From Dysgonamonadaceae bacterium (GTDB lineage Bacteria; Bacteroidota; Bacteroidia; Bacteroidales; Azobacteroidaceae), in contig JAISOJ010000064.1 in the NCBI GenBank assembly GCA_031275735.1, positions 1-40,175 of the forward strand: 40,175 bases of DNA, in the 5' to 3' direction. Within the stretch, counting starts at the first letter, position 1. Every line of letters starts with the position of its first letter. Below, in pieces: positions 14,799-36,086 of the stretch. The notes beneath the pieces were generated by a model, which saw only the letters and a list, made by a program, of their open reading frames with translations, had not been told where the DNA came from and made no database searches. The position numbers were made by a program, and so were the translations under genes.

Positions 14799-16115
14799 TT
14801 AGTTATTTTTTACAAATATCCGCTTTAGCTGATGAGGGTCCGTGATATTCGTTTTTCCGTTTTTTCCCTTCACGGAAGCATAGTTCGACGAAAAACTGTA
14901 CCAAATATTATCTTCAAAAACCCCGGCTGAATCTTCTCCTGTAATCAACTCATCTTTAGCTACAAAGATATTGTTGTAGAATTTGAATCCGCTGTTCAGA
15001 CTCTGTCTTTCATAACTGATAGCGGCTACTTTTTCATTGTATATAAGATTGTTATGAAAATAACAAGCTTTCAACTGTTGCGGATCGTCCGACGAATTCC
15101 AAATAAATACTCCAGCTTGGGCAGCCGATACGGTTCCGTCGTTTTCACTGATGCAAAAACGAACCGTATTGTTATACCAGGGGCTGGCTCCGGCATATTG
15201 AAACAAACCGTAACCGCTGCCTTCATTTTCATAGGAAAGACAATACTGTATGACGGCATTGCTAACTCCGCCGTCCAAATCAAAACCTCCGCCGTCGGCT
15301 GCCTCTTCCGAGGTCTTATTGCGATAGGCGATGCAATACTGAATCAAGATACTATCGGACTCATACGTCCAAATGCCGACAGGGCCGTTGCCTTTGCGCG
15401 GCATATCCCACCCGTTATTGGTTGCCGTACAATATTCTATGGTAACATTGGTACAGTGTCCGGCCAAAATGCCGTTACCGCTGTGGTTACTTAATTCTGT
15501 CGGATCGCCGGGATTGTTTTCGGCTTTGCTATCTCTGATCAGGATATTCCTGGAGGCATCTTTGCGCCCGTATTCACCGGAAACAAGGATTCCGCAATAA
15601 CCGTTATCGTGTGCCAATATGTTTTCGGCAACAATATCGGATGAGGCGTAAATATTCAAGCCTGCTTTTTGGTATCCTTCCGTTTCGACTCCGGAAAGGT
15701 AGATGCGGCTGCAATTATTCAGTTGCAGGCCATCTTGGGTATTTCCATCCTTTCGTCCGGCGCCGATTAAATGAATCCGTTCAATTTTCAAGTGTTTTGA
15801 ATGGTAAATATGAATACCGCCGCTGTTTCCCGACCGGATAACGGCAGGTTCGTCTCCACAAGAAGTGATAACCACCGGTTTTTCCGATGTTCCGCACAAT
15901 AAAGAATCAATCACGATGGATTCTTCGAAAGTTTCGCCGCCCATGAAGAAAATCGTATCTCCGGCTTGCAGCGTTTTGAGGTTTATCGACGAAAAGGATT
16001 CGCCTTGGCCGATATAATAAAGTTTATTTTGATATGTATGAACGTTTTTGCCCCATCCGCAAGAAAAGAACAAATAACTTGTCAACACGCATACAAAATA
16101 AAATGATCGTTTCAT
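14799..16115 (-). CDS. Right-handed beta-helix lipoprotein, possible polysaccharide-active enzyme
   Basis: 438 aa. The N-terminus MKRSFYFVCVLTSYLFFSC ends in a lipobox (Cys19). Repeated 20-25 residue coils rich in N and G with short strands (for example LKIERIHLIGAG, NVTIEYCTATNNG, ILIQYCIAYRNK and AVIQYCLSYENEGSG) mark a right-handed parallel beta-helix (Beta_helix/PbH1 type). Such folds occur in polysaccharide lyases, in GH28-like enzymes and in several unassigned loci. I cannot identify catalytic residues with certainty. It is the second of two related beta-helix genes in the locus, 12 bp from its neighbour, and its lipid anchor suits surface or periplasmic action on imported glycan. Confidence 0.8.
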   Translation of the reverse strand: MKRSFYFVCVLTSYLFFSCGWGKNVHTYQNKLYYIGQGESFSSINLKTLQAGDTIFFMGGETFEESIVIDSLLCGTSEKPVVITSCGDEPAVIRSGNSGGIHIYHSKHLKIERIHLIGAGRKDGNTQDGLQLNNCSRIYLSGVETEGYQKAGLNIYASSDIVAENILAHDNGYCGILVSGEYGRKDASRNILIRDSKAENNPGDPTELSNHSGNGILAGHCTNVTIEYCTATNNGWDMPRKGNGPVGIWTYESDSILIQYCIAYRNKTSEEAADGGGFDLDGGVSNAVIQYCLSYENEGSGYGLFQYAGASPWYNNTVRFCISENDGTVSAAQAGVFIWNSSDDPQQLKACYFHNNLIYNEKVAAISYERQSLNSGFKFYNNIFVAKDELITGEDSAGVFEDNIWYSFSSNYASVKGKNGKTNITDPHQLKRIFVKNN

Positions 16116-16127
16116 AACTTTTTGCTT

Positions 16128-17642
16128 TTAATTAAATCCGATAATATTTAAAATCGGGATTTCCGTTCCGTCGATCGGCACTGTTTTATCTTTCACAAAT
16201 TCAATTAATTTGTTCCAGTTTTCATCTTTCTCATCATACCACATGGATTTGTCGAATTTTCCATTGTATTTTACAAAACCGGTTGCCGGAACTTTCAACG
16301 GACCTACATACAGATTACTGGAATAAACATTGTTTGCGGATTTTTCTTCTTTGGCGTAAACGGCCGGTTCGGCTGTAAAAATAGCGTTGTTCCGGAAAAT
16401 ATCGCCTTCGCCATATTTGTCGTCGTGATTCGAAAAATGAAGAATGGTGTTGTCTATACACGAATCCGGTTTGGGATAAATATAAAACAGGTTTTTCTCG
16501 ATGGTTGTATTTTTTGTCAATCCGGTCAGGTGGATAATTGGCGAGAAAAACCGGTTTTCTGTTTTGTAATTTCTCAGGCCGTCGTTTATGCTGATGTTGT
16601 ATTTTATTTGCGTGTTTTCGTTCCCGTTTACACACATCGCATCCGGCCATCCATTGGTCGCAATAACAAGCATAAATCCTCCGATATTATTATAACTCAG
16701 GTTATATTGAAAGGTCGAATTCCGGCAATTCCAGTCGGAATCGTAAGCATAACCGTCAACAATCGAATGATGATCGCTCACCACATTGTATTGAACCAGC
16801 GTATGATCCGAACTCCACGGCCAGATTCCGTCGCAAGCTTCGGAAGGAGGTAGCGTTTCCGGAAAATTCCTGACGACATTGTACTCGACCAAAGCGCTAT
16901 CGCATCCGACAACGACAATTCCGTCGCCCGGCACACACTCTATCCGGTTATTACGGATAACAACGCCTTTGCTTGGGAACCATTTGTTGCGCAACCATTG
17001 TCCAGCCATCCGGATGGCATCTCGTTCACAATCTTTGATATAGCAATTTTGTACGAGCAAATTAACAAAACAGGAAGGAATTGTATCTTCATCCCTCGAA
17101 TTGAGAAACGACAAAGCGATTCCGCCTCCTTTTTCGATTTCCACTAGCCCACCTACATCGTGGATAAACAAGTTATCAACAATTATATTCCGGGCTTCAC
17201 CGTAATTATCCGCTTCAATACAAATTCCTCTTATTCCGGACACCGGTTTCTTGCCTTTGTTGGAAATTTCAAGGTCGCGGACTACTATATATTCCGAATT
17301 GTAAATATGAACAGCTTGCTTCAGGGAAGCATCTCCTTTTATATGCGGCCGTTCTTCTCCTCCGTATTTTCCCAATACAACGGGTAGTTCCGGAGATCCT
17401 TTGCAGGACAAATATAAATGGTCAGTAAAAACGGCGCCGGATTTTAACAGAAGGCTATCGCCGGGTTTCAAAAATAAATCTTTTATTTTATCCAGGTTTT
17501 TAAATGCTTCAGATGGCGATGTTCCGGCATTTTCGTTATTTCCGGTTTCCGGATCAAAATAATAATTGCTACGGACCGAAGGCTGACATGCCGATAAAAA
17601 GGCTAAAATCAATAAACCGACCCCATTCAATCTATTTTTCAT
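16128..17642 (-). CDS. Right-handed beta-helix lipoprotein, possible polysaccharide-active enzyme
   Basis: 504 aa from ATG 17642. The frame is open to ATG 17732, but the 30 extra residues are encoded by a repeat element; MKNRLNGVGLLILAFLSAC is a complete lipoprotein signal (Cys19). The mature start, YYFDPETGNNENAGTSPSEA then LKPGDSLLLKSGAVF, is the usual entry of Bacteroidota beta-helix proteins. PbH1-like coils follow (YIVVRDLEISNKG, NIIVDNLFIHDVGG, GVVIRNNRIECVPGDGI, SALVEYNVVRNF and others). It is a distant paralogue of the next gene downstream. A lyase or glycosidase role is inferred from the locus, not shown. Confidence 0.8.
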   Translation of the reverse strand: MKNRLNGVGLLILAFLSACQPSVRSNYYFDPETGNNENAGTSPSEAFKNLDKIKDLFLKPGDSLLLKSGAVFTDHLYLSCKGSPELPVVLGKYGGEERPHIKGDASLKQAVHIYNSEYIVVRDLEISNKGKKPVSGIRGICIEADNYGEARNIIVDNLFIHDVGGLVEIEKGGGIALSFLNSRDEDTIPSCFVNLLVQNCYIKDCERDAIRMAGQWLRNKWFPSKGVVIRNNRIECVPGDGIVVVGCDSALVEYNVVRNFPETLPPSEACDGIWPWSSDHTLVQYNVVSDHHSIVDGYAYDSDWNCRNSTFQYNLSYNNIGGFMLVIATNGWPDAMCVNGNENTQIKYNISINDGLRNYKTENRFFSPIIHLTGLTKNTTIEKNLFYIYPKPDSCIDNTILHFSNHDDKYGEGDIFRNNAIFTAEPAVYAKEEKSANNVYSSNLYVGPLKVPATGFVKYNGKFDKSMWYDEKDENWNKLIEFVKDKTVPIDGTEIPILNIIGFN

Positions 17643-17732
17643 ACATAAATGAGTTAACGAGTTGACAAGTAAACGAGTAAACAAATACTCATTTACATGT
17701 TTTTTTGTGTGTGGTAAACATGAATGTTTCAT
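17637..17732 (-). repeat. Start-codon repeat element, copy A (4 octamers)
   Basis: Read leftward, ATGAAA (17732-17727) starts the element and ATGAAA (17642-17637) ends it, the second being the start of the beta-helix gene. Inside are CATG-containing flanks and four 8-bp units (17684-17653: close to GTARACAA on the plus strand), bracketed by the inverted pair AAATGAGT (17647-17654) and ACTCATTT (17687-17694). The distance between the two ATGs is 90 nt, in frame. Copies B (24625-24720) and C (32780-32974) share this plan. Confidence 0.85.
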
Positions 17733-17748
17733 TGGTATTTAAATGTTT

Positions 17749-17979
17749 TTATTTTAAAATGCTTGCTTTCACCCTCTTTTGAAGTACAAGTAATTTTAAG
17801 CGGATTATCTCATTCAACAAATGCATGGCTAATTCTTCGGTTTGCGGAATCGTATCGGATAATTCATCGCAAGCCGCCCAGTTGTTGTACACGGTTATGG
17901 GTTGCTTTAACCCTTTAGTTATACCGGTTTTCAGACAAGACGAAAAAATCATCAGAGACAAAAGAACCCCTAACTCCAT
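17749..17979 (-). pseudogene. Truncated N-terminus of a secreted carbohydrate-active enzyme
   Basis: The likely start at 17979 gives 76 aa. MELGVLLSLMIFSSC is a lipoprotein signal (Cys15), and the next part contains PITVYNNWAACDELSDTIP followed by TEELAMHLLNEIIRLK. To me this resembles the beginning of TIM-barrel glycosidases of the alpha-galactosidase kind, where a barrel of several hundred residues should follow. Instead the frame changes character (LLVLQKRVKASILK) and stops, and the next gene begins beyond repeat copy A. I read it as a remnant left by a deletion. The family assignment is from memory and uncertain; a free small lipoprotein cannot be excluded. Confidence 0.55.
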
Positions 17980-18021
17980 CGAAATTTTATAGTCTATCCT
18001 CACACTTTTTTTATAAATTCC

Positions 18022-18050
18022 GGATTGCTTCGGGCAAGCCTTCGCAATGA
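18022..18050. repeat. Candidate REP-like palindromic repeat
   Basis: GGATTGCTTCG, a GGC-AA-GCC core, then TTCGCAATGA resembles a palindromic intergenic repeat (GGATTGCTTCG...CGCAATGA) found in many bacterial genomes. Here it has imperfect arms (ATTGC/GCAAT and GGC/GCC). It lies upstream of the truncated gene, between it and the GH2 gene. Only one copy is seen in the window. Confidence 0.35.
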
Positions 18051-18087
18051 GGTAGCGACAAATCACAACAAACATAATCCCATTAAG

Positions 18088-20499
18088 TTACTGTATTTTA
18101 ATTTCTACGGAAGTTTCCGGCAATTCTTCCGCAGTAGCTTTGAAAGTTATTCTTCCCTGTTTCCCGATTGGGCGGATAATTGCCAAGGCTTTTCCTCGGA
18201 ACGTTTTCGGAGTCAACGAACGAAAACTTTCCATATCAGTCGCAGAAGCATTACCGGAAGCCGCAATTTCCCCCTGTCCGGAAACGGATATCCGGACTTG
18301 ACAATCCGCATCCGGAACGGTTTGTCCTTCTTCATCAACCAATTCTATCCGAATATATGATAAATCATTCCTTGAATTATTAATCCGTAAACGATCGGGA
18401 GTTAATCTGATTTTTACCGGCGCTCCGGTTGTCCGGAGTATAACGTTTTCCATTTCTTTACCGGATTCCACGCCTACCGCTCTCAGTTCGCCGGGGAAAT
18501 AATTGACGGAAAATGTTGCCGAATATTTTGAAACCGGCTTCTCATCCGTTAAGAGTCCATTCAGGTACAAGCGGACAATGGGATAGCGGGTATAAACGTT
18601 CACTTGCAAGGGTTTATTTTCATTGCCTTTCCAATTCCATTCCGGATATTCTTCAGGCCATCCCCAATAGCTGATTTCCGCATGATAGCTTTCCGGCAAC
18701 GGCTTTTGCACAGCCATTGTTATTTTACTTCCGTTCCATAAGACGTCGCGTAACAGCGATTGAGGTTTCTTATTCCCACAAATATCAATATCTCCACACC
18801 AGGCATTAAACCAAGGCCAATCGAGAAACATCGGAGGTTCCGGATCGCCGTTTTTCACATCCAAAGCATGACCGATTCCCGATTCACCCAGATAATCTAT
18901 CGCAGTCCAAATAAAATCGCCAATGACGGAAGGATGCTTTTCCACCAAATCCCAATTGACGACACGTTCCATTGCCGTTGATTCGCTGCCATAGATAATA
19001 CGGTCGGGAAACAATTGGAGGTCATTTTCATATTCCCGCCACATGTAATTATATCCGCAAACATCCAGCGACGAGAATGCTCGCTCCGAATCTTTCCATT
19101 TCAATGGGGGATTATCCCAAAACTCATTAATCGCCGCAGTTACCGGACGAGTGGCATCGTATTGCCGGATAATCGCTTTCAGCTTTTTCGCAATTTCCAC
19201 ACCCGACGAATCGGCTCTTTCCTGGATTTCATTACCGATACTCCACATGATGACCGAGGGATGATTCCGGTCGCGACATACCATCGAAGTCAAGTCTTTT
19301 TCGTGTCGGTCATCGAAAAAACGGTGGTAATCTTCCGGATTTTTCATTTTCTGCCACTGGTCGAAAGCCTCGTCTATAACCAGCAGTCCAAGTTGGTCGC
19401 AAGCTTCGAGAAATTTTTCAGCCGGAGGATTATGAGCACATCTCACCGCATTGAATCCGTTAGCTTTCAGTAATTCCGCTTTTTTCCATTCGGCCCGGTC
19501 GATGGACGCAGCGCCTAACAATCCGTTGTCGTGGTGAACACATCCACCCTTCAATTTAAGGGATTTTCCATTCAGCAAAAAACCTTTTCCAGCGTCGAAT
19601 GAGATACTTCGAATACCAAAAGAAGTGACTATTTCATCCCGAATCTGATTTTCGGTTTTGATCGAAACTACCGCCGTATATAAGACCGGAGAATCAACCG
19701 ACCATAGGAGCGGTTTTGCCAGCTCGAAGTCCCTGATGACAGCGAATCTTTCACCGGCTTTCAGTTCAGTTAATTGTACAATTTGTTCATTTACAAGTAT
19801 ATTCGAACGGTCTTTTATTTGAATAAACAATTCGGCGCTTTCCGTCTTATTCGTTTCATTGATGACATCCGCCGCAACACAAATCGTAGCTTTCTCTTCC
19901 CTAACAGAAGGCGTTGTAATAAATACACCCCAAGTATCCAAATGCAGACGATCGGTGGTAACTAACCATACGTGGCGATAAATACCCGAACCGGAATACC
20001 ACCGGCTGTTCTTTCCCTCGTTGGAAACCTTGACTGCAATTATATTTTCCTTTCCCGCAGGATTGCAATAAGGCGTAATATCGCAGAAAAAAGAGGTGTA
20101 TCCGTAAGGATGTTCATCTACTTTTCGGCCGTTTAGCCAAACTTCCGTTTCCATATAAGCTCCTTCAAAGTATAGTTGAAGAATTTTCCCTTCCTGCACC
20201 GGTTGTAAAATAAACTTTTTCCGGTACCAGCCGGTTCCGCCGACGGTTTGTCCCGTAGCGATGCTACCCTTTTCTTTAGTAAATGGAAACTCAACACTCC
20301 AATCATGAGGTAAATCCAAGGGTTTCCAGCGGCTATCGTCCATCGCAATAGCAGACGCATCGGTTAAATCTCCGTAGTAAAATTTCCATTCGGTATCAAA
20401 ATTTTGATACCGGATGGAAATTGCTTCGTTTTGCTTAGCACATGAATAAACTGTAAATACAAACAGTAAAACATACAGTAATAACTTTATTTTCATCAT
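18088..20499 (-). CDS. GH2 beta-glycosidase (lipoprotein), paralogue 1
   Basis: 803 aa. A lipobox signal ends at Cys20 (VYSC). Domains in order: GH2 sugar-binding jelly roll (about 30-185, with GGTGWYRKKF and SGSGIYRHVWL), Ig-like domain (about 190-298), TIM barrel (about 300-590), then C-terminal Ig-like domains typical of large Bacteroidota GH2 enzymes. The acid/base is Glu424 in WSIGNEI and the nucleophile Glu506 in YGSES. RCAHNPP (353-359) is the usual barrel motif. GH2 covers beta-galactosidase, beta-glucuronidase and beta-mannosidase, and I cannot choose among them. Its start overlaps the stop of the upstream GH2 gene (ATGA), so the two are translationally coupled. Confidence 0.93.
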   Translation of the reverse strand: MMKIKLLLYVLLFVFTVYSCAKQNEAISIRYQNFDTEWKFYYGDLTDASAIAMDDSRWKPLDLPHDWSVEFPFTKEKGSIATGQTVGGTGWYRKKFILQPVQEGKILQLYFEGAYMETEVWLNGRKVDEHPYGYTSFFCDITPYCNPAGKENIIAVKVSNEGKNSRWYSGSGIYRHVWLVTTDRLHLDTWGVFITTPSVREEKATICVAADVINETNKTESAELFIQIKDRSNILVNEQIVQLTELKAGERFAVIRDFELAKPLLWSVDSPVLYTAVVSIKTENQIRDEIVTSFGIRSISFDAGKGFLLNGKSLKLKGGCVHHDNGLLGAASIDRAEWKKAELLKANGFNAVRCAHNPPAEKFLEACDQLGLLVIDEAFDQWQKMKNPEDYHRFFDDRHEKDLTSMVCRDRNHPSVIMWSIGNEIQERADSSGVEIAKKLKAIIRQYDATRPVTAAINEFWDNPPLKWKDSERAFSSLDVCGYNYMWREYENDLQLFPDRIIYGSESTAMERVVNWDLVEKHPSVIGDFIWTAIDYLGESGIGHALDVKNGDPEPPMFLDWPWFNAWCGDIDICGNKKPQSLLRDVLWNGSKITMAVQKPLPESYHAEISYWGWPEEYPEWNWKGNENKPLQVNVYTRYPIVRLYLNGLLTDEKPVSKYSATFSVNYFPGELRAVGVESGKEMENVILRTTGAPVKIRLTPDRLRINNSRNDLSYIRIELVDEEGQTVPDADCQVRISVSGQGEIAASGNASATDMESFRSLTPKTFRGKALAIIRPIGKQGRITFKATAEELPETSVEIKIQ

Positions 20500-22892
20500 T
20501 TTACTTGAATTACAATCGTTTCGTCGGGTAGATCATCTACTTTTGCTATAAGGGAAATTTCTCCTTTTTCTTTTCCGGAGCGTACGATCGCCATACATTC
20601 TCCTCTCCATGTATGACGTTTGGCTTGTTGGAAACTTTCCGTGCTACAAGGATTTGAATTTGCAACAGCGGCTAATTTCCCTGCTCCGCTCACGACAAAT
20701 TGCACTAAATGATCTGCAACCGGATTTTTAATTCCATTCTCATCTACCAATTCCACTTTGATATAGCTCAAATCATTTCCATTAGAAAGTAGCGGCTTTC
20801 GGTCGGCGGTAAGCCGTAATTTTACCGGTTTTCCGGCTGTCTTTAGAACAGCGGTTGCAACTTCTTTTCCTTTATTCAACGCTACGGCTTTGAGTTCGCC
20901 GGCCTGATAAGGAACTGTCCAGCGAATCCTGTGTTTATCTTCCGGATTATTTTTCTTTTTTTTCAATGAAACTCCGTTCAGGAACAATTCTACTTCTTCA
21001 CATTGGGAATAAGCTACTACCTCTAAAGGCGCTGATTCGTATCCTTCAAAGTTCCAGGAAGGCAACACGTCCGGCCAATCCCAGGTACTCCATTCTGCTT
21101 TTTTAGGATTAAGCGGAAAAGAAGGAACAGGAGGCGTTACAAAAATACCGACAACCGGCTGTTCCTCCCAAAGCGCTTGTCTGTAATAAGATTGTGGGCG
21201 GCGATTCCCGCAGATGTCCATATCCCCGCAATAGGCCAAGCTCCACGGGTAAAAATTTTGTTCCTGAGGATAACCTCTCCAACCGATACTCGCTTCGCCG
21301 ATGTAATCGAACGATGTCCATACAAAATCTCCGATCACCCAAGGGTATTCTTTCACTGTTTTCCAATAATCATAGGCATCAATTGCATACGATTCGGCAG
21401 CAAACATGATCCGGTCGGGATGCCTTTCATGATCCGGTTTGTATCTCCCTGGAGAATAATTATAACCGCATACATCCAAGTTGGAAAAATAAGTATCTTT
21501 TTGGTCAATAATCGCATTTACCGCAGCGGTTACGGGACGTGTAGGATCAATGGAACGGACATAATTACTTAAATCTTTGCAAACTCCGGCAATTTCTTCC
21601 GTTTCCGTATTCCGTATCTCATTTCCTATGCTCCACATAATTACAGAAGGATGATTCCGGTCCCGCAAAATCATGGAAGCCAAATCCAAAGGCCATAATT
21701 CGTCGAAACGTGAGGCGTAATCCTCTTCGAAATGGCCGGTACGCCACACATCAAACGCTTCATCAATAACCAACATACCTAAACGATCGCAAGCTTCCAG
21801 TATTTCTTGGGAAGGAGGATTATGGGCCATACGAATGGCATTAAATCCGGCCGTTTTATGCAGTTCGACTTTTCTTTCTTCCGCCCGGTCGAGCGCTATC
21901 GAGCCCAAAGGACCATTATCATGATGGATGCAGCCGCCTTTCAATTCCAACGTTTTACCGTTCAACCGGAATCCATGTTGGGCGTCGAATTGAATGGAAC
22001 GGATTCCGAACGATTCTTCTGTCCGGTCTATCACTTGTTTGCCGGCAAGGATTTCCGTTTCAAGAGTATAAAGATAAGGCGATTCCACCGACCACAGATC
22101 AGGATTGGCAACCGACAGGACTTGTTTCAAGGTTTCTTTTTTCCCGTTTCCAACTTCGACGGTTACTTCGCTTTGCGCTATGATCCTGTTTTCTTTATCC
22201 TTTATTCGATGGCGAACTTTTACGGATTTATTTTCAGGGTATTGATTAACAACGGTAGAAGCTATGGCTACGGTTGCCTTATCTTCCGAAATCTCCGGTG
22301 TTGTAATGGCAATACCCCAATTCTCGATATGCAAAGGCGAAGCGATCGTTAACCAGACGTGGCGAAAAATTCCTGCTCCACTATACCAACGGCTTGTAAT
22401 CGTTTCTTTATCAACTCGAACTGCAATCAGGTTTTCCTCTCCGAATTGAACGAAATCGGTAATATCATAGCAAAAACTTGTGTATCCGTAAAAATGATTT
22501 CCGACATGTTTTTCATTGATCCACACATCCGAATTCATATAAACTCCGTCAAACTGTATGAATATCTTCTTGCCGGTATCGGCTTTTGACACTTTGAAAA
22601 GTTTCCGGTACCAGCCTGTTCCGCCGACTGTAAATCCACTCGATACGCCATTCACCACCGTTGAATCAAAAGGCGAATCGGCGCCCGGGATATCTTCGAT
22701 ACTCCAGTCGTGCGGTACATTTATCTTCCGCCATCCGGTATCCGGCAAAGCAATTTTTTCTCCCCCACTAACCTCTCCCCTGTGGAAAAGCCAGTTTTCA
22801 TCGAACGACTGAACAATACGTTGATCGTTTGTGTGTTTCTCACAGCTAACGAAAAGGGAAACACATACTATAAAAAATACTATTTTTTTCAT
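20496..22892 (-). CDS. GH2 beta-glycosidase (lipoprotein), paralogue 2
   Basis: 798 aa. The signal MKKIVFFIVCVSLFVSC carries a lipobox at Cys17. The domain plan equals that of its downstream neighbour: sugar-binding domain (GGTGWYRKLF, SGAGIFRHVWL), Ig-like domain, TIM barrel with RMAHNPP (354-360), acid/base Glu425 in WSIGNEI and nucleophile Glu500 in FAAES, then C-terminal Ig-like domains with LRLTADRKPL and ending in a beta-sandwich. The two proteins are clearly paralogous from end to end but differ throughout, which suggests an old tandem duplication with different specificities. It starts 4 bp after the SusD gene. Confidence 0.93.
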   Translation of the reverse strand: MKKIVFFIVCVSLFVSCEKHTNDQRIVQSFDENWLFHRGEVSGGEKIALPDTGWRKINVPHDWSIEDIPGADSPFDSTVVNGVSSGFTVGGTGWYRKLFKVSKADTGKKIFIQFDGVYMNSDVWINEKHVGNHFYGYTSFCYDITDFVQFGEENLIAVRVDKETITSRWYSGAGIFRHVWLTIASPLHIENWGIAITTPEISEDKATVAIASTVVNQYPENKSVKVRHRIKDKENRIIAQSEVTVEVGNGKKETLKQVLSVANPDLWSVESPYLYTLETEILAGKQVIDRTEESFGIRSIQFDAQHGFRLNGKTLELKGGCIHHDNGPLGSIALDRAEERKVELHKTAGFNAIRMAHNPPSQEILEACDRLGMLVIDEAFDVWRTGHFEEDYASRFDELWPLDLASMILRDRNHPSVIMWSIGNEIRNTETEEIAGVCKDLSNYVRSIDPTRPVTAAVNAIIDQKDTYFSNLDVCGYNYSPGRYKPDHERHPDRIMFAAESYAIDAYDYWKTVKEYPWVIGDFVWTSFDYIGEASIGWRGYPQEQNFYPWSLAYCGDMDICGNRRPQSYYRQALWEEQPVVGIFVTPPVPSFPLNPKKAEWSTWDWPDVLPSWNFEGYESAPLEVVAYSQCEEVELFLNGVSLKKKKNNPEDKHRIRWTVPYQAGELKAVALNKGKEVATAVLKTAGKPVKLRLTADRKPLLSNGNDLSYIKVELVDENGIKNPVADHLVQFVVSGAGKLAAVANSNPCSTESFQQAKRHTWRGECMAIVRSGKEKGEISLIAKVDDLPDETIVIQVK

Positions 22893-22896
22893 TCTT

Positions 22897-24630
22897 CTAA
22901 TTATATCCCGGATTTTGAATTAATTTGGGATTCTTCTGCATTTCTGCACGGGAAATCGGAATCAAGTAATGGCTGTTATTCCATGCCCTATTTTCCCCTA
23001 AAATCGTTGTTTGCCTGTAAGTCGGGTTTTCGACGGAATCATCGGTCGGATAAGTGACTTTTACGCCCGTTGCCGGAACATAAGCCGAAGGAGCAATCAT
23101 CCAGCGGCGGACATCAAAGAAGCGGTGCTGTTCCCAAGCCAATTCTACGCGACGTTCATTTCTACAACGATCGAGCAAGGCCGTACCGGATTCCGTAACA
23201 TCAGGCATACCCGCCCTTTTCCGGATCAGGTTCATGACTCTGCGGGCTTCTCCGTCTTCTCCCAGAGCAATACAAGCTTCCGCATAATTCAGCAGAATTT
23301 CCGCATATCGAATCTGAATATAGGGTTGGGGCTGTCTTGGACCATAATAATAGGTCGGGAAATTGGGATCAATGAATTTGCGGATGTAATAACCGGTCGC
23401 ATTTTCCTGGTAATCGGCGCCGGATTTAACAACTGTACCTTGACTGTCCTCCCAAGCGCCAACTTGCACAATATGATCCGGCGTATAGCCTCCGTCTCTT
23501 ACCCAATCAGCTCCTTCATGCAGAATGGTCGCATAAAAGCGGGGATCCCGGTTTGCATACGGATTTGAGGATTGCGTGTTCCAATCGAAACAGGTTCCAT
23601 CGCTGTTTTCATAAGCATCAGCCAAATTTCCGGTAACTTGGTTCAATCCGTATCCACCCCAAGAGGGAGTTCCACAAATGCTTGATATCCAATCGGTAGC
23701 CCAATAGGGGAAATTTATTTTATCATAAATGGTAATAAATATCTGCTCATCAGACGACATACTTAAAAACAAATCCTCGAAGTTTTTTACAGGATCCGGA
23801 TTTTCTTCATATAGATCATAGATTCCCAAGTCTATCACTACCTTAGCCGCGTCGCGGGCTGTCCGCCAACGTTCTGCCCTGTCTCCGCCAACATAACTTA
23901 CCAATTCGGGATAGCTGTAGCCATTCGACCAGGATGCCTGCGAATTAAACAGGTCGCTGGCTGCATAAAGCAGAACTCTCGACTTGATAGCAAGCGCAGC
24001 GCCTTGGGTCGCTCTCGTTTTGTCCGATTGAACAGGCAATTGCGAAGCAGCCTGATTCAAATCCGTAACAATAAAATTAACGGTTTCTTCCAGCGTATTA
24101 CGTTCCTTACTGTAATCGTCACCGATTTGATATGTATGATCAATGAGGGGAACTCCGCCGTATTGAGCCAATAAGAGATAATAAAAGTAGCCTCTTAAAA
24201 AATGGACTTCTCCCTTTATTTGATTTTTTGTTTCGTCGTCGGGATAAGGTGTTTGCTCAATCCGTTCAAAAAACAAATTACATGCACGAATGGAACTGTA
24301 TACTTCATTCCACCACCATCCTTCCATACAGGTAGCCCAATTATTTTGGAATACGCCGCTATCGTCGGGCGACATGGTGCTGGTCAAAACTTTTGAAACC
24401 ACACCGTCTTGTTGCGCAGGAACAGCTTCGTCGACCAAAGAAGCATTCATATACCATTGATACGGATAAGGAAGAGCATTATAAATGTCAAATACAAATT
24501 CCTCAACCAGCGAAGGATTGTTCCAAACCGCGGCGTCATCAAATTTGTCGCCGGGAACTGTATCCAAATAGTCATTGCAAGACGAAAAGAGCAATGCGAT
24601 GCTTATTATTAAAAAATATATACGTTTCAT
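22897..24630 (-). CDS. SusD/RagB-type glycan-binding lipoprotein
   Basis: 577 aa from ATG 24630. The longer frame to 24726 adds residues encoded by repeat element B and would bury the signal peptide. MKRIYFLIISIALLFSSC is a lipoprotein signal (Cys18) followed by NDYLDTVPGDKFDD, the classic SusD start. The N-terminal TPR-like region is followed by the C-terminal SusD domain with YAEILLNYAEACIALGE and RNERRVELAWEQHRFFDVRRW. SusD proteins cap the SusC channel and bind glycan at the cell surface. SusC lies upstream, but the gap is about 100 bp, unusually long for a SusC-SusD pair, because of repeat copy B. Confidence 0.96.
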   Translation of the reverse strand: MKRIYFLIISIALLFSSCNDYLDTVPGDKFDDAAVWNNPSLVEEFVFDIYNALPYPYQWYMNASLVDEAVPAQQDGVVSKVLTSTMSPDDSGVFQNNWATCMEGWWWNEVYSSIRACNLFFERIEQTPYPDDETKNQIKGEVHFLRGYFYYLLLAQYGGVPLIDHTYQIGDDYSKERNTLEETVNFIVTDLNQAASQLPVQSDKTRATQGAALAIKSRVLLYAASDLFNSQASWSNGYSYPELVSYVGGDRAERWRTARDAAKVVIDLGIYDLYEENPDPVKNFEDLFLSMSSDEQIFITIYDKINFPYWATDWISSICGTPSWGGYGLNQVTGNLADAYENSDGTCFDWNTQSSNPYANRDPRFYATILHEGADWVRDGGYTPDHIVQVGAWEDSQGTVVKSGADYQENATGYYIRKFIDPNFPTYYYGPRQPQPYIQIRYAEILLNYAEACIALGEDGEARRVMNLIRKRAGMPDVTESGTALLDRCRNERRVELAWEQHRFFDVRRWMIAPSAYVPATGVKVTYPTDDSVENPTYRQTTILGENRAWNNSHYLIPISRAEMQKNPKLIQNPGYN

Positions 24631-24720
24631 ACGAAAATGAGTTAACAAGTAAACGAGTTGACGAGTAAACGAATACTCATTTTCATGCTCTTGGGTGTGT
24701 GAAATACATAGATGTTTCAT
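24625..24720 (-). repeat. Start-codon repeat element, copy B (4 octamers)
   Basis: ATGAAA (24720-24715) and ATGAAA (24630-24625) border the element; the second is the SusD start. Four 8-bp units occupy 24641-24672, bracketed by AAATGAGT (24635-24642) and ACTCATTT (24675-24682). The interval between ATGs is 90 nt, the same as in copy A, and the sequence matches copy A over most of its length. It separates SusC from SusD. Confidence 0.85.
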
Positions 24721-24732
24721 ATCCATATTAAA

Positions 24733-27700: not shown

Positions 27701-27885
27701 AGATTCGTAACTACTCCCTGCGAAGTACCTTTTACAATTACGCTCACACCAATAATAGGATCTTCCTTTTCATCGGTAACTCGTCCCGATACGGTTTTCG
27801 ATTGCGCCCATGCGGAAGAAATTCCAAAGACGGTCAAAACAAGAAAAAAACCTGCCTTTAGCCTAAATTTTTGTTGATTTCTCAT
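24733..27885 (-). CDS. SusC/RagA-type TonB-dependent outer-membrane transporter
   Basis: 1050 aa, the usual size. A signal peptide ends near AWAQ (about 28), followed by a CarboxypepD_reg-like domain (VSGRVTDEKEDPIIGVSVIVKGT, about 33-105). Then come the TonB box region and plug start DEVVVIGYGTQKKETLSGAV (about 114-133) and a long beta-barrel ending in aromatic F-S-I-N-F. No STN domain is present, so it should not signal through an anti-sigma factor, consistent with control by the HTCS. With SusD it would import oligosaccharides at the expense of the proton-motive force via TonB. It is the first gene of the locus. Confidence 0.96.
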   Translation of the reverse strand: MRNQQKFRLKAGFFLVLTVFGISSAWAQSKTVSGRVTDEKEDPIIGVSVIVKGTSQGVVTNLDGEYTIAITSGNQAVLSFSYLGYELQEIPVGTRNRIDVVMKEKPAALDEVVVIGYGTQKKETLSGAVTSIKGSDVIKIPSMNVSNSLAGSLPGLVVVGQSGEPGADFSRLYIRGQSSLNDNNPLIVVDGVPNRSLERIDPSTIENISVLKDASAAIYGSQAANGVILITTKRGKAEKLNVTLNLSQGWSRPTIVPELTNSAEFATLVNEIKAYRGDLPLYSETDIQKYTAGDDPWRYPNTDWFDAVLKPWSPQSNVNINLSGGTEKLKVFTALSVRSQDGYFKNSGSKYSQYDLRTNVDGEINNYITVSVDMSGRMENADFLTIGSGTLFSNLLTARPTLQAYWPNGLPGPPLNMQNQYNPVVQSTSEVGYNKNENYVFNITGKINIKIPYVEGLSFVATGAIDRSLNYGKKFYDQYTLYTWDGQTVSNNEIPELEGKRYGRAPSLIQHQTIWKEYLVNGLFNYQKEVAKGHDLNILIGLEMIENSSNWFSAERRNYKVSFPQELDFGDPNNQYANGSNPAINRWLNYFGRLNYSFQSKYLLEFVWRYQGTSKFAPQTRWGFFPGISAGYRISEENFWEGNLKETINDLKIRASWGKTGNDLIDPYQYFSLYSAYWRNFVITQDPEEQNNKSTIYESRAYNLQAQWEEADQSNIGIDMNLLKGKLTITADYFNNLRSKILIPQSASVPGSTGLGSILPDVNIGKVRNSGFDFNISYNHKAGDFTYRIGLNGGYAKNKVIFFDEAEGVWPWQSQTGYPMHSYLLYDAPGIFHTQAEIDQWNQYAREKTGDPDAEYITGARPGDIFFRDTNEDGQINGEDKIRIYKNIVPSWTGGLNLLAQYKGFDLNVLFQGQAGAVRYIAPDGGEERNYPKSFYDKRWTEQNPNAEYPRTYNRNDEYWMSSDNWNTFWLKKTDFIRLKNIELGYTIPRKILNKTGINTVRVYVGGMNLFTYAPDMTDFDPEVDQQDSATAGSGYPIQKMVNAGFSINF

Positions 27886-27917
27886 AATATTAAACTATTA
27901 AATTCTGCTTTTGGGGC

Positions 27918-27960
27918 CAAAATTATAAAAATAGACCTATTAAGGATAACACAATTGTGT
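27918..27960 (-). promoter_or_regulatory. Candidate promoter and operator of the polysaccharide locus
   Basis: Upstream of SusC, minus-strand TAATTTTG (27925-27918) matches TAnnTTTG. No TTTG lies at -33. Instead a perfect 12-bp palindrome ACACAATTGTGT (27949-27960) is centred about 33 bp upstream of the -7 box, where an activator would sit. The leader to the SusC ATG is about 30 nt. The HTCS is the natural candidate activator, although AraC-type proteins more often bind direct repeats. Confidence 0.4.
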
Positions 27961-28142
27961 CGATTTATAACAAGCAGATACGACACCAAATATTCTTTCG
28001 GGCATCTTATTAACTTTTGAATTTCCTGATAGTGCACGCTACCGTTTTCGGGCATTGAACAAAAAAGGAAAAAGCCTTGTCGAATTGTTGAATCTGCGTA
28101 TTCGCCATTTCCGATGACAAGCAATTGGAAGAAGCCGATTTT

Positions 28143-31100
28143 TTATGCTTGTCTATTTTTTTCCGGTTTTGCTACACCCATGAAAAGAGGAAGAAACAAA
28201 AATGTTCCAACCAACGACATAATGATTCCGCCGATAGTTCCTGCGGCCAAAGGAAACCAAAAAGCTTCTTTATTTTCCCCTATCATGAATGGGATAAATC
28301 CGAGAACAGTAGAAATAACGGTTAAAAATATAGGTGTGATTTTAGCTCCCCAAGCCTGAATATACGCTTGTAAAAGAGGAATATTTTCCTGCCGTTTTCG
28401 AATGTTATTATATTCGTTGATAATGTAAATATTTGCATTAATGGAAACTCCGCATAAAAGAATAAAGGAAGCAAAACCTCCCTGGTCGAAATTTAATTTA
28501 AATAAATAAAAAGTGAGAAATGTTCCGATAAAAGCAATCGGTATAACAAAAATAATGGAAAGCGGTTGTTTTAGAGAATTAAATAAAATACTGCAAGTAA
28601 AGTAAATAATAATAAAAATTATGAATAACAAGAAATATTGTTTACCGTTATCTCTTCTCCAATCCCACCACAACTCTCCTTTTTCAATCGAATAACCCAT
28701 AGGCAATTTATCTCTAAATTCTTCCATCTTGTTTTCCAAGACCTTACGACCTTGTTCGTACGCACCGATATATTCGTATTGCAAGCATAACCGGTATTGC
28801 TGGTTTTCTTTCACAATATTCTGCGGCATTTGTGTTCTTTCCAATGTAGCCAACTCGTCTAATTTGTAAGTTTTTTCTTCCCCTATTTTACTTGGAAAAT
28901 GTTCCATGCTCCAAATATCATATTCTTGCGATTGCCTGGCATAAAGTACAATACGTTCCAAGCCATATTGTCCGGAAATCTGACCGGCGTAGGTTTTTTG
29001 TCCGAATATCGACCGTAAAGAGGTAAATAACTGCATGGGTTGTATATTTTCCTGTGCCAAACGTTCTTGGTTTAAGTCAAATGCAAACTCCTGGTAATCA
29101 TCTTTGTACCAACTAAATTCCGATCCGATCATTACTTCTTTGATCCGTCGGTGTTCCAACAACTCCTTTTTGAATTGTTCGGTTAAATCCGATAATTCGT
29201 CGTAATTGAATCCACGCAGAATAGCCCGATAAGAGCCGGCCGATTCTCTGACGTCATTACTGAAGCCATCTCCTAAGCCGAAAACGCTCCAACTGCCTCC
29301 GCCCAATTCTAACGACTTCGTGATAAGTTTGGATTTCAACAGATAAGGGAAGCCGCTCCGTTCGCCTTGCTTTGTAAAGCGAATACTAATCTCCGCCCGC
29401 CTTGCGCTTTGTATTCGAGTTTCGAACTGGCGCACTTCGCTAAATTGACTGATGTAGCTCTCCATGCGTTGTATCAGGTGATTCATTTGCGAGATAGTGG
29501 CGCCATTAGGCAGGGTAGCCGTCATATAAATACTTGTTTCTTGCCGGTCGGTAAAATAACTGCCTTCAAATACTTTTTGTACAAATAAGCGCAAAGTTCC
29601 ACCCAAATAGGTATCTACATGCGTTTTTATTTTTTCTTTATAAAATTCCGATCCAAGGGTTTTGTTATACCATTTATTCAGAATATTTTCTCCTTCTAAC
29701 TTGTCAGGTAACCAAAATACGGGTAATCCAAATAATAAAACAATTAAAATACAGGTCGGAACACGCCATCGCCAAAGAAAGCGGCACAAGGATGCATAAA
29801 AGGAATTAAAAGTTGAGAGATAAGAGTTAAGAATTTTTTTCCTTTTTCTAACTCTTAACTCATAGTTCTTAACTCTTAACTTATCAATGAGCGCCGGAAC
29901 TAGAAACAAAGCAATAAAAAGGGAAACGGAGAGATTGATAATGATTACTTTCGCAAAATCCTGTAAATTCAATCGTATTTTCTCTTCCATGAAAAAGATA
30001 ATGATCAAAGAAGCAATCGTCGTAAGGGTGGCGGACAAGATGGCTAAGAATGATTTTTTGTTTCCTTGCCGGATAATTTGATCCGACATCACAATGGTAT
30101 TGTCAATAACCAAGGTAAGCGAAATCGTAATTCCCGCCAAGGAATAGAGTTGCATCTCCAATCGACCCCAATAATAAAATATGGCGGCGGCGGCAATATT
30201 CATAAACAGGGATAAAAATATGAGTAATAAATACTTGAAACTACGATAGATGACTAATACAAAAACCAGAAGAATCAGTAAAGTTAATCCGGTACGAAAA
30301 TAGATTTTATCCAATTCTTTTTGTATGTAATCGGTTGCATCATAAGCAATATGTATTTCATAACCGGAAGGAAAAGACGATTGGATCTGCTCTATTTTAG
30401 CTTTTATCCGGCTGCTCAAATCCAACTGATTAGCATTCTCATACGAAGTAATGGCTATATAAATCGAATTTAATCCGTTGATACGGTAATAACTTTGCGC
30501 TTCTTGCTCTAAATAAGCGACTTTAGCTATTTGATTCAAAGTAATGAGTTTGCCTTCTTTATTCTTCACCGTTATTTTTTCCGGATCAAATTTATTTTCT
30601 CCAGTATTTCCCGCAACGAGTACGACTCTTATCCATTCGTCTGTCTTTCCTCGATTAACGACCGTACCCATAAACTCGCGGTTCAAATAATTGTTGATCG
30701 CCGATTGAATATCGGATACTGTTAATCCCAAAATTTCCAATTGCTTATAATCGTATTCCAATCGCCACTCCATCGGCATCGCGCCCGATATGTCAATTTT
30801 ATCAATTCCCTCTATTTGAGCCAATTGAGGTTTTATTTGATTTTCTGTAAATTGCTGAATAATAATCGGATTAACCACAGCATTCATCGTAAAAACCAAA
30901 AACGGACGATTGGCATTTTCGTCGGAACGGTTCAACGAAATTGTCGGGTAAGTCATTCCGTCGGGTAGATGAGGCCAAGTCTGGCGAATAATTGTAGAAA
31001 CTTCAAACCGCGCTACATCCACATCGACATGCTTATCAAAACGAATAACAATGTTTCCCCAACCGTTTCCGGAGGTCGAAGCAATATTTTCCACTCCTTT

Positions 31101-31304
31101 GATGCGGCTGAGCATCGCTTCTAATTTGGAGGTAACTTCCATTTCCACCACGCGAGAGGCATTCCCTTGCAGATTGAAAGAGACATTTATCTGCGGAAGC
31201 GCCTGCGATGGAGATAGTTTCACCGGCAAAAGAGGCACAAGCGCCAAACCGATCAACGTGAAACAAATAAACCCCAGAATAACGGAAAAAGAGGATATTT
31301 TCAT
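28143..31304 (-). CDS. RND efflux permease 2
   Basis: 1053 aa. TM1 is at about 7-28, a first periplasmic loop runs to about 335, and TM2-TM6 span about 337-472. TM4 carries the proton-relay Asp401 in LVIDNTIVM. The second half (TM7 from about 513) repeats the plan, with LCGVSINANIYIINEYNNI in TM10. The cytoplasmic link after TM6 (about residues 475-497) is encoded by an in-frame heptamer repeat, which gives an odd basic segment (KLRVKNYELRVRKRKK). The start overlaps the TolC-like stop (ATGA). It belongs to a leftward efflux operon with one membrane-fusion protein, one outer-membrane channel and a second RND pump. Substrate unknown. Confidence 0.92.
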   Translation of the reverse strand: MKISSFSVILGFICFTLIGLALVPLLPVKLSPSQALPQINVSFNLQGNASRVVEMEVTSKLEAMLSRIKGVENIASTSGNGWGNIVIRFDKHVDVDVARFEVSTIIRQTWPHLPDGMTYPTISLNRSDENANRPFLVFTMNAVVNPIIIQQFTENQIKPQLAQIEGIDKIDISGAMPMEWRLEYDYKQLEILGLTVSDIQSAINNYLNREFMGTVVNRGKTDEWIRVVLVAGNTGENKFDPEKITVKNKEGKLITLNQIAKVAYLEQEAQSYYRINGLNSIYIAITSYENANQLDLSSRIKAKIEQIQSSFPSGYEIHIAYDATDYIQKELDKIYFRTGLTLLILLVFVLVIYRSFKYLLLIFLSLFMNIAAAAIFYYWGRLEMQLYSLAGITISLTLVIDNTIVMSDQIIRQGNKKSFLAILSATLTTIASLIIIFFMEEKIRLNLQDFAKVIIINLSVSLFIALFLVPALIDKLRVKNYELRVRKRKKILNSYLSTFNSFYASLCRFLWRWRVPTCILIVLLFGLPVFWLPDKLEGENILNKWYNKTLGSEFYKEKIKTHVDTYLGGTLRLFVQKVFEGSYFTDRQETSIYMTATLPNGATISQMNHLIQRMESYISQFSEVRQFETRIQSARRAEISIRFTKQGERSGFPYLLKSKLITKSLELGGGSWSVFGLGDGFSNDVRESAGSYRAILRGFNYDELSDLTEQFKKELLEHRRIKEVMIGSEFSWYKDDYQEFAFDLNQERLAQENIQPMQLFTSLRSIFGQKTYAGQISGQYGLERIVLYARQSQEYDIWSMEHFPSKIGEEKTYKLDELATLERTQMPQNIVKENQQYRLCLQYEYIGAYEQGRKVLENKMEEFRDKLPMGYSIEKGELWWDWRRDNGKQYFLLFIIFIIIYFTCSILFNSLKQPLSIIFVIPIAFIGTFLTFYLFKLNFDQGGFASFILLCGVSINANIYIINEYNNIRKRQENIPLLQAYIQAWGAKITPIFLTVISTVLGFIPFMIGENKEAFWFPLAAGTIGGIIMSLVGTFLFLPLFMGVAKPEKNRQA
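29815..29883. repeat. Heptamer repeat inserted inside the RND 2 gene
   Basis: A left arm (GATAAGAGTTAAGAA) and a longer right arm (CTAACTCTTAACTCAT, then TTCTTAACTCTTAACTT) flank a pyrimidine tract. About 42 bp from 29822 match the minus strand of the miaB/HTCS junction repeat (10815-10855), with the same spacing and four C/T differences in the tract. The right part also matches 38762-38796. The insertion keeps the reading frame and falls in the cytoplasmic loop between TM6 and TM7. Confidence 0.8.
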
Positions 31305-32791
31305 TGAATATTCATTTCGGAATCAAATGCAAAAGATAAGGATTCTTCTTTTTCAAAATCATATAAAGTTAATTTACGTATCTTGTAATAGCTCAACCAA
31401 TAATTTTTCAAGGACAGTATAAAATTTTTCTGCGCCTCTTTTTGACGATTGAGCGATAAAGTTAAACTATTTATATCGGCTTTCCCAATGATAAAGCGTT
31501 CTTTGGTATTCGTATAAGCCATATTGGCTAATTCCAACGCTTCTTCGGCGCTTCGAATCAGATCCTGCTGCACATTGAAATCGCTCACCGTCATTACGAT
31601 TTCTTGTTCTAAACTCAATTCGTTTTGTTGAACGGAAATTCTGGCAACATTCAAATTATTACGCGCCATATTTACCTGTCCTTTCCGAACGCCCCAATCT
31701 ATCAATGGAATTGAAAAACCTACCGAAATCACATCTTGCCGGAGCGGATGACGGTATGCGTCCCCCAAATTATCGGCCACCTGATTGAATCCGATGCTTG
31801 CCGAAAAAGAAGCGTCAAAAACCGCGCTTTTCCCGGTTCGATCCACTTCGCGTTCTGCTTCCATTATTTCTTGCTTGTTACCTAATAAGTCCGGATTATT
31901 TTCCCTGACATATTGCAAGGCTTTATCTAAAGAAATAGCTATATCTTTTGTCCGGTCGGGAAGAACTAAGCGTATGTGGGTTTCTTTATCTTTGTTTAAG
32001 TACGAAACAAAATCGGACATCGCTCTTTTCAGGCTAATTTCAGCGTTTTTCAAACTGTTTTGAGCATTTACAGCATCCAAGCGCAAGGTAAGCAAATCGG
32101 CTTGCGATATGGAAGCGATTTTATGACGTTCTTGCCCGATTCGATACAAAGTATCGCTCGACAACACATTGCCTTTTGCCATATCGTATTCTGTTTGCGC
32201 CATCGCTAAATTGAAAAAATATTCGGTAGAGGTTTCTGAAATAGCTTCCCGATCGTACAGGTATTGTTTTTTCGCTTTTTCATACTTCAGCGGCTCAATT
32301 TTTCTTTCCCATTTGAAACTATTGAATCCGAATAATTTTTGGGAATAACCTACCCGGAAAGGAATACTGGTATATTGCGAATAGGTATTGTCGCCGAAAT
32401 TCCGGATATAACCCAATTCCGAATCAATATAAAAAGTACCTCCCGTCCAATCCAGATTTTGCTGAATTGATAAATTTCCGGAAGAATATAACGATTGCTG
32501 TGCGCGATAAACATCCAAGTTGCTTCCCGAATCATAACGCCGCGTTATATCCCGGTAATATTGTATCGGCGTCATAGTTAGTTTTAACGATGGAAGCCTG
32601 GCTGCCTTAAACGAATGAAATTCCCAAAAACTTGCCTGATATAGATTCTTAGCCCGGAAAGCCTGAAGCGAACTATCGGCTGCTATTTCAATCGTGCGGC
32701 TCAACGTCAATTCCTCCGTTTGCGCCCTTGTGACAACTATCGAACAAAAAACACCCAAAAATAAACAAATCCCCGTCTTTTTTATACGCAA
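31301..32791 (-). CDS. TolC-family outer-membrane efflux channel
   Basis: About 496 aa from TTG 32791. The frame is open to ATG 32974, but the residues before are encoded by 21 octamers. KKTGICLFLGVFCSIVVTRAQ is a clear signal peptide, and by analogy with repeat copies A and B its original start would be ATGAAA, now ATAAAA (32785-32780). The mature protein has two OEP repeats with long coiled-coil helices (for example LAMAQTEYDMAKGNVLSSDTL and ADLLTLRLDAVNAQNSLKNAEISL). The protein forms the outer-membrane duct for the RND pumps. Its stop overlaps RND 2 (ATGA). Which codon starts translation is open: ATG 32974 (63-residue hydrophobic extension), TTG 32791, or ATA. Confidence 0.88.
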   Translation of the reverse strand: MRIKKTGICLFLGVFCSIVVTRAQTEELTLSRTIEIAADSSLQAFRAKNLYQASFWEFHSFKAARLPSLKLTMTPIQYYRDITRRYDSGSNLDVYRAQQSLYSSGNLSIQQNLDWTGGTFYIDSELGYIRNFGDNTYSQYTSIPFRVGYSQKLFGFNSFKWERKIEPLKYEKAKKQYLYDREAISETSTEYFFNLAMAQTEYDMAKGNVLSSDTLYRIGQERHKIASISQADLLTLRLDAVNAQNSLKNAEISLKRAMSDFVSYLNKDKETHIRLVLPDRTKDIAISLDKALQYVRENNPDLLGNKQEIMEAEREVDRTGKSAVFDASFSASIGFNQVADNLGDAYRHPLRQDVISVGFSIPLIDWGVRKGQVNMARNNLNVARISVQQNELSLEQEIVMTVSDFNVQQDLIRSAEEALELANMAYTNTKERFIIGKADINSLTLSLNRQKEAQKNFILSLKNYWLSYYKIRKLTLYDFEKEESLSFAFDSEMNIQ

Positions 32792-32974
32792 ATGAGTAAA
32801 CAAGTAGACAAGTAGACAAGTAAACAAGTAGACAAGTAGACAAGTAAACAAGTAGACAAGTAAACAAGTAGACAAGTAAACAAGTAAACAAGTAAACAAG
32901 TAGACAAGTAGACAAGTAGACGAGTAAACAAGTAGATGAGTAGACAAGTAGACGGGTAAACAAGAATGTTTCAT
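32780..32974 (-). repeat. Start-codon repeat element, copy C (21 octamers)
   Basis: From ATGAAA (32974-32969) the element runs through 21 consecutive 8-bp units (32963-32796, 168 bp, mostly GTAAACAA and GTAGACAA on the plus strand) to ATAAAA (32785-32780). That last hexamer corresponds to the inner ATGAAA of copies A and B with ATG changed to ATA. ACTCATTT on the minus strand at the distal end is kept, but its AAATGAGT partner is absent. The array is a multiple of three, so ATG 32974 stays in frame with the TolC-like gene. Confidence 0.88.
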
Positions 32975-32975
32975 A

Positions 32976-33022
32976 TCTTAATTCTTAGTTTTTAATTCTT
33001 AACTCCTTTCTTAACTCTATAA
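32976..33022. repeat. Heptamer repeat at the RND 1 / TolC junction
   Basis: TTAATTCTTAGTTTTTAATT then CTTAACTCCTTTCTTAACTC is a loose run of the heptamer family. On the minus strand it encodes the last residues of RND 1 (RVKKGVKN stop, TAA at 32994-32992) and runs up to repeat copy C. Confidence 0.6.
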
Positions 33023-36060: not shown

Positions 36061-36086
36061 AAGAGTTAAGCACTAAGAGTTAAGCG
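36059..36086. repeat. Heptamer repeat, left of the S23-type ORF
   Basis: ATAAGAGTTAAGCACTAAGA continues with GTTAAGCG. On the minus strand it encodes the last residues (RLTLSA) and TAA stop (36068-36066) of the S23-type protein and leads into the ATG of RND 1 (36060). It is in inverted orientation to the repeat at 36441-36470. Confidence 0.65.

Follow-up and report, generated by a model that had tools for sequence, protein, structure and literature searches.

Short palindromic elements at ATGAAA gene starts in Bacteroidota and their probable conversion into translated starts in a Dysgonamonadaceae genome

Why does a short repeat lie exactly on the start codons of unrelated genes? The question is raised by a 40,175-nucleotide stretch of DNA from a Dysgonamonadaceae bacterium (the window; contig 10 of a 2.43-Mb assembly that is 76% complete and comprises 114 contigs). 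Herein, three repeat copies, termed cassettes A, B, and C, each begin at an ATGAAA and end at a second such hexamer, or its remnant, at a gene start. The explanation that we hold with moderate confidence is that short palindromic elements occur across Bacteroidota on ATGAAA starts in the orientation of the gene, and that the lineage of the window has made their outer ATG a working start. It is carried by the membership of most cassettes in this family, their position, the covariation of their hairpins, empty sites in relatives, and selection against stops in the outer frame.

Cassettes as probable translated gene starts in the genome of the window

All genes behind the three cassettes lie on the minus strand. 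The cassettes and the open reading frames (ORFs) that begin at their outer ATG are as follows.

17637..17732, minus strand: cassette A; outer ATGAAA at 17732-17727 and inner ATGAAA at 17642-17637, 90 nt apart
16131..17732, minus strand: ORF of 534 aa from the outer ATG of cassette A, beta-helix lipoprotein-like
24625..24720, minus strand: cassette B; outer ATGAAA at 24720-24715 and inner ATGAAA at 24630-24625, 90 nt apart
22900..24720, minus strand: ORF of 607 aa from the outer ATG of cassette B, SusD family
32780..32974, minus strand: cassette C; outer ATGAAA at 32974-32969 and ATAAAA at 32785-32780, an interval of 189 nt
32795..32964, minus strand: 8-bp tandem array in cassette C, 21.2 units with 86% matches
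31304..32974, minus strand: ORF of 557 aa from the outer ATG of cassette C, outer-membrane efflux protein (OEP), TolC-like

A preliminary description of the window had reported these copies and their end hexamers, which proved right base for base. The intervals of 90, 90, and 189 nt indeed keep the outer ATG in frame, with outer frames open for 534, 607, and 557 aa, and the three products named then are those of the outer-frame ORFs. Cassette B has an extra in-frame ATG two codons 5' of the outer one. Cassettes A and B contain only a few 8-bp units behind a longer conserved 5' module; in cassette C, the inner start codon is lost and the module is reduced to its first bases, followed by the array. 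Hence, the earlier view of the 8-bp repeat as the body of the element applies to cassette C, which is mainly array, but not to A, B, and the relatives, where the module occurs with other middles and arrays occur without the module.

A 26-base pattern of the module end, searched with up to 3 mismatches, occurs at 51 places in the genome, and the reversed pattern at none; these matches are not due to chance. From 54 stretches selected for module or array matches, together with the window, 60 copies were obtained by a regular expression, and cassette C brings the census to 61. This census bears out the claim of a repeat family on Met-Lys start codons, as an ORF of at least 100 aa follows 55 of the 61, in two cases via a second cassette or module (L036 at 2541, L053). 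In 49 of the 61, the frame of the outer ATG continues into an ORF of at least 250 aa. For this genome and its genus relatives, exported and cytosolic products were distinguished by eye. On this basis, 53 of the 55 ORF-preceding cassettes are followed by exported or membrane proteins, 49 of these in frame, whereas the two cytosolic products, NAD kinase (L053) and thymidylate synthase (L075), are both out of frame. Exported genes dominate probably because they often start with ATGAAA and because in-frame prefixes occur only on them. The exact module pattern also matches a metagenome-assembled genome (MAG) named "Dysgonamonadaceae bacterium" and a Candidatus Symbiothrix MAG; bacteria of this kind are termite-gut dwellers.

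Use of the outer ATG can be judged from the 29 copies of exactly 90 nt, which include the gene-less L038 and L073. They differ from their consensus 294 times in total, and none contains an in-frame stop. Random placement of the differences predicts 10.2 stop-bearing copies (sd 2.5), and placement with sites kept predicts 7.1; zero was reached in 0 of 2000 simulations in either case, although the copies share ancestry and the 294 differences are not independent events. Counted by distinct variants, the test is milder: on the consensus alone, 2 of 111 observed variants would make a stop, compared with 17 of 261 possible ones, and in their real context no copy has one. Over the codon positions, the differences are even (101/85/108). 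Thus, the stop-free frame is preserved and the residues are not, which speaks against selection on the prefix peptide. The inner ATG is gone in 14 gene-start copies (L034, L036 at 2451, three in L043, L047, L048, L049, L065, L068, L074, L077, L083, and cassette C of the window), and every one of them reads in frame from the outer ATG; L063, a fifteenth copy without inner ATG, has no gene behind it. Where the inner ATG is present and the length is other than 90 nt, 9 of 16 copies are in frame. Because the 29 copies are free of in-frame stops, the outer ATG would, as judged from sequence, be translated in this genome; in copies without inner ATG, other internal starts may be used. The former argument that in-frame placement of three copies by chance would be "1 in 27" carries little weight, since most copies have the common 90-nt form and are in frame already; the frame evidence comes from the stop and inner-ATG tests.

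By arithmetic, the 8-bp unit encodes one cyclic octapeptide that is the same in all three frames. In the L043 copy at 2411, a hydrophobic run encoded by the array leads straight into a lipobox-like LAGC (by eye), and this array seems to serve as a signal peptide. Because 8 is not a multiple of 3, gain or loss of units would switch the outer frame, so that the arrays could be phase-variation switches. The long arrays at exported genes without inner ATG (cassette C, copies in L043 and L049) suit this idea. It is nevertheless very improbable, as most copies have short imperfect arrays plus an inner ATG, and relatives with the module often have no array; the arrays were viewed in one assembly per species.

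Another repeat, CATAATTCATAATTC...TTTACGT, with a cassette-like right end, ends directly before some outer ATGs (L040 upstream of 2493; L048, L072, L074). In the window, cassette C opens the OEP gene of an efflux group at 31304-37520 (OEP, AcrB-type pump, HlyD-type adaptor), and short 7-bp tandem repeats lie at 29849-29881, 32976-33002, 37507-37553, and 38763-38795, several of them near gene starts or ends.

A hairpin family on start codons across Bacteroidota

A looser pattern is found in 10 of 393 Bacteroidales genomes including that of the window (reversed control: 1), and the copies from these genomes are longer and palindromic. A covariance model, R1, was built from 12 aligned copies of five genomes outside the genus of the window; its structure holds part of hairpin H1 and nothing of hairpin H2 (both described below). 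With at most 9 candidates scored per genome and E-values that are rough, R1 matches at E≤0.01 in 116 of 393 Bacteroidales genomes, covering 78 of 206 genera, and at E≤0.001 in 14 of 395 phylum-wide genomes, all 14 outside Bacteroidales. A second model with both hairpins, R2, gave poorer E-values, and the counts were made without it. Copy number can be high, with 8 copies in 400 kb of genome G292.

R1 returns cassettes A and B with the boundaries of the preliminary description, A at E 9e-4 in the window and 0.0074 in 334 kb, B at 0.0064 and 0.054. At E≤1, 39 matches occur in 55 sources from the same genome: 37 known cassettes, one cassette missed by the pattern (L056), and one (L033:3785-3876) that looks like chance. 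Over 25 module loci of the genus and 22 DPP4 loci, all 20 matches fall at module loci. Weak matches in the window at 6281-6374 (E 0.29) and 16013-16115 (E 1) lie at ORF starts and are read as ordinary signal-peptide starts; another lies at 34538-34608 (E 1). Most of the cassettes can be assigned to an older family of Bacteroidota, as local and degenerate members.

A comparison of the window and 15 loci with Rfam gave no match at E≤1 that touches an element. The open-access literature searched contains only neighbors of such a family (REP/RAYT, Rickettsia palindromic elements, BrickBuilt, TAACTGA repeats), and it may be described elsewhere; element strings used as text queries there returned only titles on bladder cancer and turbot, and the main text of a review on prokaryotic miniature inverted-repeat transposable elements (MITEs) lacks the phrase "start codon". 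The element pattern has 0 matches in viral_contigs, and one 141-base element locus has 0 among plasmids and phages. The hairpin family is widespread in Bacteroidota, apparently undescribed, and counted among the interspersed palindromic elements.

The typical form has about 85-120 nt and reads ATGAAAC-nnn-CATG ... CATG-nnn-GTTCCAT-nnG-ACC-TTTAAAAATAAATTATTTA-Cnn, followed by the ATGAAA of the gene. Its structure was derived from an alignment of 48 R1 matches, 45 of them distinct. In H1, the left ATGAAAC of the element pairs with the central GTTCCAT; in H2, the central CAT pairs with the ATG of the gene itself, which is part of the 3' strand of H2. Since one central CAT pairs with either the left or the right ATG, the outer parts of H1 and H2 are alternatives. 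Among the distinct copies, 80.7% of the H1 cells are paired and 40 are doubly changed, with a covariation of 0.171 compared with 0.080 in shuffles (0/500) and at most 0.044 when slid. The corresponding values for H2 are 90.8% and 41, with 0.435 compared with 0.116 (0/500) and at most 0.174. Two H1 pairs are replaced by an opposed G and A in 17-18 of 45 copies, and one fixed A.C pair leaves 43 of 45 unpaired there. Folding of the opposite strand, at which the A.C pair hints, is unsupported: outside this pair, wobble cells number 24 in the sense strand and 13 in the other. Copies also stack head to tail with a common ATG, three in L236 and two each in L246, L229, L211, and L223.

The 45 distinct copies from other genera are best matches rather than a random sample, and exported-like N-termini were called in them by a hydropathy rule. 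The right ATG starts an ORF of at least 100 aa in 33 of them; 6 are followed by another copy and 6 by neither. At the 33 gene starts, the right hexamer is ATGAAA in 26 and ATGATG in 5, with one ATGACA and one ATGAAG. The genes of 20 copies have exported-like N-termini, 8 of these copies being in frame, compared with 0 of the 13 others (one-sided p ~0.009). Of the proposed target, the Met-Lys start of signal peptides, the Met-Lys start holds, and the signal peptide does not, as 13 of 33 gene-start copies precede genes without such an N-terminus.

The same copies bear on the model put forward originally, a miniature transposon that duplicates a 6-bp target site at ATGAAA. For it speak the hexamers at both ends of A, B, and most cassettes of this genome, as well as an intergenic copy between atpB and atpE, which has ATGAAA on both sides. 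However, apart from three exceptions, the 45 distinct copies have ATGAAA as their left hexamer, paired within H1, and the right hexamer can also read ATGCAA, ATGACA, ATGAAG, or ATGATG, changes that the left one does not mirror. Since the outer ATGAAA belongs to the element itself, there is no support for a plain target-site duplication, which we regard as quite improbable.

Of 30 copies fetched from beyond Bacteroidales, 20 have an ORF of at least 100 aa beginning at their right end, in 18 cases with ATGAAA. An unbiased sample of 60 stretches of 20 kb (1.2 Mb) was taken from G292, G389, and G101, which had been picked for matches and long contigs, so that the density there is not representative. 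It contains 23 R1 matches at E≤0.1, or 19 copies after removal of 4 opposite-strand duplicates; 15 of the 19 end in ATGAAA, and an ORF of at least 100 aa begins at 14 of these 15. The sample holds 1892 ATGAAA, among them 200 at gene starts (of 881 genes) and 270 intergenic. With free choice among start and intergenic hexamers, at least 14 of 15 at starts has p ~6e-5. Insertion at start codons is supported. Only 1 of the 19 copies is in frame (L330, with the inner start ATA), and the in-frame state is hence a specialty of the lineage of the window, not of the family.

Origin, spread, and possible function

The preliminary description had called for empty sites with a single ATGAAA in relatives, and such sites exist. 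The DPP4 gene of L066 carries an 87-nt cassette; 27 relatives match in the compared region, and the start is visible in 24 (not in L120, L144, and L137). All 24 are without element, and 17 start with ATGAAA. The copy between atpB and atpE is likewise not seen in the 190 bases upstream of atpE in any of 29 relatives, several of which have another upstream gene. Some copies seem inherited, as apparent orthologues in different genomes carry the element at their start (by eye). Such pairs, with differing middles, are a GldK-like lipoprotein (L095/L096; G053, G013) and a TolC-like protein (L049/L183; G000, G020).

The 5' module is present in 10 of 38 genomes of the genus, that of the window included. 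Its middles are arrays, a GGATTGCGGGTCAAGCCCGCAATG palindrome, a GGGGAGGGGTCGGGGG repeat, or none (L184). Among 25 module copies in relatives, 12 outer frames stay open for more than 70 aa, all before exported-like N-termini; 12 stop earlier, including four before cytosolic-looking products (L098, L106, L177, L189), and L196 runs off its contig. Other members of the genus have 8-bp arrays without module, frequently arranged between genes as inverted pairs around a short loop, often directly beside a gene (L003, L005, L009, L012, L013, L019, L021, and others; L167); in G022, an inverted array lies between atpB and atpE. In the cassette, the 8-bp array is a filling acquired secondarily.

That like elements stand between unlike flanks is most simply explained by copying, and the family probably spreads in this way. 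In 27 of the 90-nt copies, identity is 0.81 inside compared with 0.32 and 0.31 in the flanks; the flank values for G080, G292, and G415 are inflated by free end gaps and were set aside. Because the right end restores ATGAAA, starts would be tolerant landing sites at which the protein is unchanged after landing. Within the lineage of the window, 8-bp arrays or other repeats of the genome would then have taken the place of the 3' half, commonly with a 90-nt frame free of stops as the result. The outer ATG would have become the working start, with roughly 30 residues or more from the cassette placed ahead of the signal peptide; the native start of some genes would have decayed. The prefix is presumably removed together with the signal peptide.

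Intergenic ATGAAA would be tolerant as well, yet they are little used, which implies a wider target context or loss of copies away from starts. This rarity also suits a different explanation, namely a cis-regulatory RNA in which H2 hides the start codon and H1 frees it, with a protein, a ligand, or temperature choosing between them, and in which copying only seeds the copies, those at starts being retained for their regulatory effect. Position, sense orientation, and the strong covariation of H2 with the ATG of the gene agree with it, and so does the predicted openness of the ATG, 0.27 in 14 element genes compared with 0.42 in 187 other ATGAAA genes (p 0.047), or 0.23 compared with 0.43 in a shorter context (p 0.008). 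However, the genes behind the element are functionally mixed, the element is missing at the same gene in relatives, and the cassettes of this genome persist though their 3' half is lost. As the main account, regulation is possible but rather unlikely; since the start codon is predicted to be less open, a regulatory role is conceivable, and H2 may affect translation.

In single-strand transposition by HUH (Y1) enzymes, an internal strand acts as guide. The element could move by such an IS200/IS605- or REP-like system, its central strand guiding it to ATGAAA at both ends, and its hairpins and the strand complementary to both boundary hexamers are what one would expect. Nevertheless, 5 of 34 element-rich genomes (G068, G101, G199, G292, G389) and 2 of 9 others have no Y1_Tnp at E≤0.001, and only 3 of 30 Y1 loci have an R1 match within ~1.5 kb (E≤1, two below 0.01), roughly the background. 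We consider this route unlikely.

Several points weigh against the account that we favor, descent from a start-codon-associated family. R1 matches the cassettes of this genome weakly (E at best 1.9e-4 in 334 kb and in many cases greater than 0.01), does not recover cassette C in the window, and has the right ATGAAA built in, so that copies having it are favored. By the rules applied, six of the 61 cassettes lack an ORF of at least 100 aa: that of L033 precedes a 69-aa ORF, and those of L038, L045, L055, L063, and L073 have no gene at their right end. The same holds for a 62nd cassette missed by the pattern (L056:2444-2581), whose outer frame stops at once and which has no gene at its right end, for 10 of the 30 copies outside Bacteroidales, and for 5 of the 19 unbiased ones. 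The number of pairs with double changes does not exceed the shuffles (H1 51/500, H2 423/500), and these controls ignore relatedness. An insertion that separates near-identical strains was not observed; identity to the DPP4 relatives is at most ~83%. No mobilizing enzyme was found; Y1 was tested and not supported.

As a tentative generalization that could well be wrong, the family may represent a class of start-codon-homing elements, with a central strand that matches ATGAAA at both ends, leaving the gene unharmed by restoring ATGAAA at their right end, keeping the start codon within a switchable hairpin, and open to domestication as new translated starts or even signal peptides.

Comparison with known elements

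Interspersed palindromes are mostly reported between genes, whereas the present family concentrates where translation begins. It matches ~30% of the sampled Bacteroidales genomes, with covariation for the start-codon pairing. How a repeat finds start codons, and which role start-site structure plays in Bacteroidota, become testable questions. In the genome of the window, unrelated genes gain new translated N-termini in parallel, which matters for the annotation of starts and signal peptides. If the homing reading is true, such elements can give N-terminal prefixes to many unrelated exported proteins at once. In the opa genes of Neisseria, a single gene family, the signal-peptide coding part contains a repeat unit whose length is not divisible by three. 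The 8-bp arrays share this property, with switching being hypothetical; unlike opa, many unrelated genes carry a common cassette. Unlike a DDE-type MITE, the present element has no inverted repeats at both ends: the left arm pairs internally, and the right end has its own hairpin.

Repetitive extragenic palindromes (REPs) and REPINs with their RAYTs are likewise short high-copy palindromes with within-genome subfamilies and stacked copies; they are described mostly near gene 3' ends or intergenic (PMC3116915, PMC2817692, PMC3733652). REP/REPIN sequences bear a GTAG or CGTC tag at one end (PMC3733652), which is absent from the ends of the present elements (consensus of 12 copies, and 48 aligned copies, by eye). 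Unlike REPs, these lie exactly on start codons and form a second hairpin with the ATG of the gene, and they have no link to a Y1 gene (3 of 30 Y1 loci, near background). Rickettsia palindromic elements are also palindromic repeats fused in frame to unrelated genes, but they encode a conserved peptide and lie within ORFs (PMC10969869), whereas the cassettes stand only at the gene start and vary alike at all codon positions (101/85/108). The BrickBuilt MITE of Porphyromonas gingivalis, also from Bacteroidales, consists of a leader, tandem direct repeats, and a tail; its units have 23 nt, its length is 84-991 nt, and it is reported as intergenic, not on start codons (PMC4596501). The TAACTGA direct repeats of Beggiatoaceae and some Bacteroidetes are short tandem repeats in sense orientation just upstream of start codons; they are heptamers without hairpins, carry stops in all frames, and end before the ATG (PMC4679880).

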